Source: Candidatus Treponema merdequi (GTDB taxonomy: Bacteria > Spirochaetota > Spirochaetia > Treponematales > Treponemataceae). From it: DNA of 62,373 nucleotides. The notes under the pieces were generated by a model. That model did not search any database and was not told the DNA's origin. It saw only the letters and a list, made by a program, of their open reading frames with translations. The position numbers were made by a program, and so were the translations under genes. Below, in pieces: positions 12,865 through 14,641 of this stretch (the stretch's first letter is position 1; the number at the start of each line of letters is the position of its first letter). The DNA lies in the NCBI GenBank assembly GCA_018064525.1, contig JAGHVB010000003.1, positions 1 through 62,373 of the forward strand. Direction: 5' to 3'.

Positions 12865-13385
12865 TTAGTTGCCGGGGCAATCACAACGTCTTTGACAATC
12901 TCTTTTATTTTTCTCGATTCCTTGTTCAATTTCATCTTCGAGGCCGTCGTTATACCAGGCTCTGTGAATTGATTCTTCATCGTATGCTGTCAAACTCATA
13001 GCTAAGATCTCCTCTTTCTGCAATTTGAAAAAGCCGTCAAAAAGATTTTCTTTAATTGCCCAGTCCACGGCTTCATTGACCGCCTCTTTTGCAGTCAGTC
13101 TCTTTTTCTTGTTGTCTGAAATTCTTGAAACGTAACTTGTATAATTATATAACGGCTGACAGATTTTTTGAAGAGTCTCATTGTGTCCCGGGTTGATGTT
13201 TATCATCTCTGCAGTCCATTCAAAAGCAGTGGCATATTCGGATTATACGTACTCTGCTGTTCATAGAGATTCATCTGTGAATCGATGAGGAACGACACGT
13301 CATTTTTCATCGTGATGTAAATTACATTTTCGATCGTGTTGAGTTTGATTTGCGATGTCTGAAAATTGTCAATCGGCGGAACCAA
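12865..13385 (-). pseudogene. Decayed Rpn/PD-(D/E)XK nuclease family transposase
   Basis: Two fragments on the minus strand. The first (13203-13385) carries LNTIENVIYITMKNDVSFLI and NLYEQQSTYNPNMPL, the typical N-terminal region of Rpn-type recombination-promoting nucleases. The second (12865-13206) begins at INPGHNETLQKICQPLYNY and carries the C-terminal half (TAKEAVNEAVDWAIKENL) in another frame. The central part with the PD-(D/E)XK catalytic residues is missing between them, and the extreme N-terminus is also lost. An internal deletion has joined the two halves. Non-functional as a nuclease. Confidence 0.75.
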
Positions 13386-13464
13386 TTGAGTCGTTCATCT
13401 TTTTGCCTCCACACTTATAATACGCGCGTTTACAAAAAATATATCCAATTTTTAAATTTTTTAA

Positions 13465-13495
13465 TTGACATCAAAACGTCCCCCCCCCCTATACT
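13465..13495 (+). promoter_or_regulatory. Consensus promoter with a C10 tract in the spacer
   Basis: TTGACA (13465-13470) is a perfect -35 and TATACT (13490-13495) a near-perfect -10. The 19-bp spacer ends in ten consecutive Cs (13480-13489). A spacer of 17 bp is optimal, so loss or gain of a C or two by slipped-strand mispairing should switch promoter strength. It drives the lipoprotein at 13565. Confidence 0.8.
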
Positions 13496-13564
13496 ATGTT
13501 TAGAAACGATGTTTTTGTCTTCGGGCATTTTTTCGAGAGAGATTTTTTATTGTTGAGGAAAATT

Positions 13565-14641
13565 ATGAAAAAGTTTTTAAATGGAATTGCACTCATATTG
13601 TGCGTGATGTCTTTCTGCGTGTTTGCAGGATGTTCTTATGCGAATAATTCGCCAGCGCCTGCTCCAGGTCCAATACCAGGACAGACCGGAATTCTAGAAA
13701 TAAAAGCAGGTGTCAAACCGGATGATGTTTTTGGAGAACAGACTATGCCAATATTTTCTTCGCCTTCAGTAGATCATATATTTATTTCAGAAAGTGGTGC
13801 AGGTTTAAAAGGGTATCTTATTGCATCAGATGATGAAGATGCGTCAACATGTGAAGGATATTCTGGTTCAACTGATATAGTAAAATATCAATGGTATTCT
13901 GGTACAACAGGAAACTGGCAGTTATTAACCGGAGAAACTTCTGGAAGAATACAAATTACAATTGTACCTGGGACAACTTATTATATCTGTGAAGCATTAA
14001 GTGAAGATGGTAACAGTAAAACTTACAGCAATGTATGTACAATACAATGTGGTATAGAAGGGGTTACTGATAATATCGGTAAGATTGCGTATTCAGATGG
14101 AACATACAGCTCGGAATATAATTCAGAAAAAACACCAATAGGAGTAATTTATGATGTATATCCAAATGGAAACCCAAAGCTTATTTTAAACTTTAATTAT
14201 GCTAGTTCAGAATCTTGGAGTCATTCTGAACTAGCTTATGATAAAAACTTTATAAAAGATGTAACAACTCCAATAAGTTATATTGATGGCAGTAAAACCT
14301 GGCAGGTAATATGTGACAATATTGATGCAAAAGAATTAGACTTATTTTATGCTTTTGTTTTTTGCAATAATCTGACAGATGGTAATAAAAACTGGTATTT
14401 ACCTGCAAGGGATGAACTTGTGACATTGTATTACAATAAACCTGCTGTTGAAGCAGCATTTAGAACATTAAAAGACGGTGGTTTTTTGGACAGGCTGTTA
14501 GAAATGGAAGGCTGGTATTGTTCAAGTTCTCAATATTCAACCTTAAATTATTGTTCATGGGGTGTTGATTTTACTGATGGTGATTATTTTTTACTTAATA
14601 AAAAGAAAAGGGCGGGTGTTTTTGCCATATCACATTTTTAA
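13565..14641 (+). CDS. Lipoprotein with DUF1566/Lcl-like domain, candidate phase-variable
   Basis: The start is set at 13565 because GAGGAA lies just upstream and the protein then opens with a proper signal peptide and lipobox (FCVFAGCSYAN); upstream in-frame starts lie over the promoter. 358 residues. After a Pro-rich linker comes the segment KAGVKPDDVFGEQTMPIF, a beta region with WYSGTTGNWQ, and a C-terminal DUF1566-like block (WYLPARDEL, WYCSSSQYS, SWGVDF). It is paralogous to the lipoprotein at 2774. Probably surface-exposed; ligand unknown. Its promoter contains a poly-C tract. An imperfect hairpin with a T run follows at about 14720. Confidence 0.8.
   Translation: MKKFLNGIALILCVMSFCVFAGCSYANNSPAPAPGPIPGQTGILEIKAGVKPDDVFGEQTMPIFSSPSVDHIFISESGAGLKGYLIASDDEDASTCEGYSGSTDIVKYQWYSGTTGNWQLLTGETSGRIQITIVPGTTYYICEALSEDGNSKTYSNVCTIQCGIEGVTDNIGKIAYSDGTYSSEYNSEKTPIGVIYDVYPNGNPKLILNFNYASSESWSHSELAYDKNFIKDVTTPISYIDGSKTWQVICDNIDAKELDLFYAFVFCNNLTDGNKNWYLPARDELVTLYYNKPAVEAAFRTLKDGGFLDRLLEMEGWYCSSSQYSTLNYCSWGVDFTDGDYFLLNKKKRAGVFAISHF

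Follow-up and report, generated by a model that had tools for sequence, protein, structure and literature searches.

In Neisseria, homopolymers located between the -35 and -10 boxes of porA and opc result in graded or on/off expression of the surface proteins. In Treponema, switching by poly-G tracts in promoter spacers is known from a few genes of T. pallidum, which is difficult to culture and to manipulate.

For TP0126 of T. pallidum, coding for a homologue of OmpW, a poly-G tract was identified between the -35 and -10 boxes (Giacani 2015, as related in PMC7864442), and according to the same source transcription was best at a -35/-10 distance of 17 nt. G tracts were also described for the promoters of tprE/G/J and tprL, where their length affects transcription (PMC7864442). 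G/C tracts were counted in a comparison of cultivable treponemes (PMC8049484); when the text of that study was searched for "promoter", the word turned up in the reference list only. In the open-licence papers on phase variation or homopolymers in commensal treponemes, this class of promoter was not reported. Within the searchable literature, its prevalence in treponemes other than T. pallidum appears to be unreported.

The window analysed here is the whole stretch of 62,373 nt from Candidatus Treponema merdequi. The original prediction had proposed a candidate phase-variable lipoprotein promoter at 13465-13495, with a C10 tract between its -35 and -10 boxes. The reading that we strongly favour is that of a sigma70-type promoter with a slippage-prone C tract in its spacer, which would serve as the phase-variable contingency promoter of a surface lipoprotein. 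The prediction is upheld as a probable case of the TP0126 type, as suggested by the duplication of the module, the divergence of its spacer, its recurrence in the genus and the TP0126 precedent.

The C10 Promoter

The following features are present at the locus:

12865 to 13398, minus strand: decayed divergent gene, a relic of a PDDEXK_2-like nuclease/transposase (sub-threshold match; deletion and stops)
13465 to 13470, plus strand: -35 box TTGACA, kept in the paralogue on contig C9 and in three copies of Ca. T. scatequi
13471 to 13479, plus strand: part of the spacer outside the repeat, TCAAAACGT, 9 nt (8 nt in relatives)
13480 to 13489, plus strand: C10 homopolymer, the proposed slippage site (C8TC, C9 or C4 at the equivalent place in homologous promoters)
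13490 to 13495, plus strand: -10 box TATACT, abutting the tract and identical in the paralogue
13496 to 13564, plus strand: 5' leader, kept in the copies, with a GAGGA ribosome-binding site at 13555-13559
13565 to 14641, plus strand: lipoprotein gene, 358 aa, with an Ig-like/Lcl_C-type body, a signal peptide and a lipobox-like FAGC (Cys23)

The order read at the locus is TTTTTTAA - TTGACA - TCAAAACGT - CCCCCCCCCC - TATACT - ATGTTTAG. Direct reading reproduced exactly the layout predicted before, namely TTGACA, nine bases, ten Cs and TATACT with a spacer of 19 bp, and the accompanying statement that C8 would give a spacer of 17 bp is correct by count. As in loci of the TP0126 type, a homopolymer of at least 8 nt lies between the two boxes, and a spacer near 17 bp can be reached by a change in tract length, here from C10 to C8.

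In dinucleotide shuffles, the expectation for runs of eight or more Cs was 0.03 per window. The second-longest C run in the 62 kb has a length of 5, and the window, which is AT-rich, is otherwise devoid of G/C runs of 8-15 nt. Pairs of TTGACA with a -10 box (at least 5/6 matches, spacer of 14-21) number only four on both strands of the window, the C10 promoter among them. A chance coincidence of the C10 tract with the -35 and -10 boxes is not plausible. In a standard promoter scan with spacers of 16-18 bp the C10 promoter was not called, its spacer being 19 bp.

The Lipoprotein and the Divergent Gene

The best start of the lipoprotein gene is 13565, 69 nt past the -10 box, and the N terminus of the protein, MKKFLNGIALILCVMSFCVFAGC, is a signal of the lipoprotein type. 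Signal peptide and lipobox-like FAGC mark by sequence an exported lipoprotein, as had been predicted; its exposure on the cell surface is putative. The C-terminal part resembles Pfam Lcl_C with a sub-threshold score of 31.2 bits (cut-off 34.9), and matches to Lcl_C were found in four of the five scanned members of the family. An AF2 model of moderate confidence (pLDDT 60) consists of a beta-sandwich and an alpha/beta C-terminal part, which suggests that the middle of the protein may be an Ig-like sandwich.

The tract might alternatively serve the divergent PDDEXK_2-like nuclease gene on the minus strand and not the lipoprotein. Such a gene or its relic stands beside the promoter in both copies in this genome and in Ca. 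T. scatequi; an intact relative adjoins the paralogous promoter (L032 480-1421, minus strand), and the gene is also present in Ca. T. scatequi, as if gene and module had been copied together. This alternative is nevertheless highly improbable, since the gene in the window is a relic, the tract lies about 80 nt upstream of its start with no boxes around it facing the minus strand, and TTGACA and TATACT flank the tract on the plus strand.

Duplication of the Promoter in the Same Genome

Pattern searches of the 2.70-Mb genome identified runs of at least eight Cs at seven places. Three of these lie where contig C14 ends in G-rich sequence of low quality and one is in a repeat-rich region of contig C18, while two are promoters, the C10 promoter of the window and one with C8TC on contig C9. 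These two are also the only TTGACA-N2-12-C6+ sites of the genome, which is poor in tract promoters compared to relatives with dozens of tracts.

The remaining place, at contig C64:4210 (L143), is a G11 tract within a coding sequence adjoining an acyltransferase-like gene. Its frame is open at every third tract length only, making it a candidate for translational phase variation. A G10 tract in another genome (L148, G042 C1:2167923-2167954) lies within a gene for a hexapeptide-type acetyltransferase, the frame of which depends on tract length.

The promoter on contig C9 (96839-96868) reads TTGACA TTTAAATA C8 TC TATACT with a spacer of 18 bp. Leader, ribosome-binding site and signal peptide are as in the window, and the body of the lipoprotein is different. 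Over 238 aligned nucleotides, the two copies differ at 6 of 19 positions in the spacer and at 8 of 219 elsewhere (Fisher p = 2e-4). The promoter is duplicated together with the UTR and the signal peptide, and divergence between the copies is highest in the spacer. A T interrupts the tract on contig C9, so that slippage would be lower there. The other signal-peptide paralogues of the genome are without this promoter. Among them, the paralogue at 2774 lacks the tract, as originally noted; it starts 19 nt past the end of the upstream gene, in an operon-like position, and the closer promoter copy, on contig C9, does have a C tract.

Copies in Candidatus Treponema scatequi

A search for relatives returned one locus among genome contigs and none among viral contigs. 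In Ca. Treponema scatequi, the copies of the module are TCAAAACGCCCCTCAC (16 bp, C4), TTCAAACGCCCCTCGT (16 bp, C4) and TCCAAATG-C9-AT (19 bp). With spacers of C4/16 bp and C9/19 bp, the core promoter and the UTR are conserved and the tract varies; the homologous modules carry C10, C8TC, C9 or C4. On the simplest reading of these sequences, some copies would have acquired their long tracts by expansion of an ancestral C4. To judge by the 16-bp versions, the promoter does not seem to need a long tract in order to function.

In the C9-tract copy, the -10 box is directly followed by a sequence whose end is found again in inverted orientation where contigs C63 and C118 end (L136 end; contig ends of L144 and L147), there preceding leaders of the module. 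The sequence resembles an IS element that may have inserted at the -10 box of the C9-tract module.

Recurrence in the Genus

A search for TTGACA-N0-12-C8 identified 37 distinct sites in 18 of 159 genomes, the raw count being 57 compared to 17 for the reversed pattern. For poly-G, the pattern TTGACA-N2-12-G8+-TANNNT was found at 134 sites in 43 of the 89 genomes that were at least 90% complete, and its reverse at 0 sites. Up to 20 poly-G spacer promoters are present per genome (G145, G199, G085, G021, G061 and G040). In these six genomes, nearly all of them stand before genes for lipoproteins or secreted proteins.

When 89 C/G tracts were sampled without regard to promoters, 15 were spanned by a promoter compared to 1.0 expected from control flanks taken 25-110 nt away (maximum of 6 in 400 draws); the sample comes from six genomes picked for having TTGACA-C tracts, and the ratio is therefore not a genus-wide rate.

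Looser patterns were discarded. A scan for TTGA..C8..TANNNT gave no clear excess over the reversed control, and its raw count was set aside. Of only two further matches to TTGAN{6,18}C7TATA, the first lies inside an acetyltransferase gene and the second is a G tract upstream of a lipoprotein and not a C-strand promoter. In one genome (G088), the sequence CCTAGG..GTTATA-C9-ATAC... recurs on many contigs around C9 tracts without TTGACA and represents a repeat family.

Homopolymers are error-prone, and low-quality poly-G occurs at the end of contig C14 in the same assembly, so the tract length could in principle be an artefact of sequencing or assembly. We give this explanation very little credence, because the same arrangement is present in independent assemblies of many species and the paralogue within the same assembly has a different, interrupted tract.

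Variation of Tract and Spacer Length

When orthologous promoters are aligned, it is chiefly the length of the tract that differs. Upstream of the same lipoprotein, TTGACAAAACTC-G10/G8/G9-TAAAAT was found in G085/G021/G199; further examples are TTGACAAAAT-G13/G9-TAATAT in G101/G103 and TTGACAATA-C8/C9-ACTATATAAT in G087/G150. Three paralogues in G199 have C12, C10 and C9, with one extra T before the C12 copy. These comparisons are between species and between paralogues, with lengths taken from the assemblies.

By spacer, 55 of the 134 poly-G sites are at 15-16 bp and 56 at 18-19 bp, with only 11 at 17 bp. Genomes with multiple sites have mainly spacers of 15-16 bp, the other genomes mainly of 18-19 bp. 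This dip at 17 bp could arise because the majority of the sequenced alleles represent a low state, or it may reflect a lineage-specific promoter geometry.

It might be argued that the promoter is real and the C tract a fixed spacer, tuned or neutral, without switching at a useful frequency. One strain was seen, the tract of the paralogue on contig C9 is interrupted, and in relatives this promoter has C4 and 16 bp. We consider this unlikely, given that orthologous promoters elsewhere in the genus vary mainly in the length of the tract, that the C10 run has no counterpart of 8-15 nt in the AT-rich window, and that promoters in tract-rich relatives span tracts about 15 times as often as when control flanks are used.

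Genes Downstream of Poly-G Promoters

From 72 poly-G promoters read in detail, a non-random draw with about 20 from G145, 64 have a ribosome-binding site and a start within 120 nt (median 33 nt). By simple rules, a signal peptide was identified in 60 of the 64 downstream proteins compared to 18 of 65 in the background (p = 1e-15), and a lipobox in 44 of 64 compared to 7 of 65 (p = 6e-12), the background being other genes of the same and neighbouring sampled loci.

At L241 (1-924, minus strand), a promoter-like TTGACATTTTTAT-G9-TGT-TATAAT with a spacer of 19 bp was found. The start of a Cas12a gene (REC1 domain, E = 3e-67) lies about 113 nt behind this G9 tract.

Proposed Mechanism and Comparison with Known Systems

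Replication slippage would gain or lose Cs in the tract, and each step would alter the distance between the -35 and -10 boxes and rotate them against each other. From the 17-nt rule of TP0126, transcription would be expected to peak near 17 bp, with C8 as the best state and the sequenced C10, at 19 bp, weaker. Slippage in living populations and an ON/OFF effect of the tract on expression are both predictions of this reading.

Roughly half of the relatives with good assemblies have the arrangement before genes for lipoproteins, which suggests an old property of the genus and not an adaptation to syphilis. For treponemes beyond T. pallidum, we lean slightly towards a bank of promoter-spacer contingency loci spread over the genus, of up to about 20 per genome, which would control the lipoprotein coat stochastically, most alleles as sequenced departing from the 17-bp optimum by 1-2 bp, and which may extend past the surface, for example to Cas12a. 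The relatives with tract promoters are species in which switching could be tested directly.

Compared to porA and opc of Neisseria, lineage and genes are unrelated. The likeness to TP0126, as described in PMC7864442, lies in a homopolymer in the -35/-10 spacer before the gene of an exported outer-membrane protein, with the tract length setting the spacer. The TP0126 tract is poly-G, whereas the promoter in the window has poly-C on the coding strand; the products are an OmpW homologue and a lipoprotein, respectively. The TP0126 case is experimental, and the present one is made by comparison alone, the loci being compared by description. With tprE/G/J and tprL, the locus shares a tract in the promoter of surface-protein genes; for tprE/G/J, however, eight or fewer Gs were reported as the permissive state, without a stated spacer optimum (PMC7864442). 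In the light of this literature, the promoter in the window joins a known kind, and what is newer is how widely this kind occurs in the genus.
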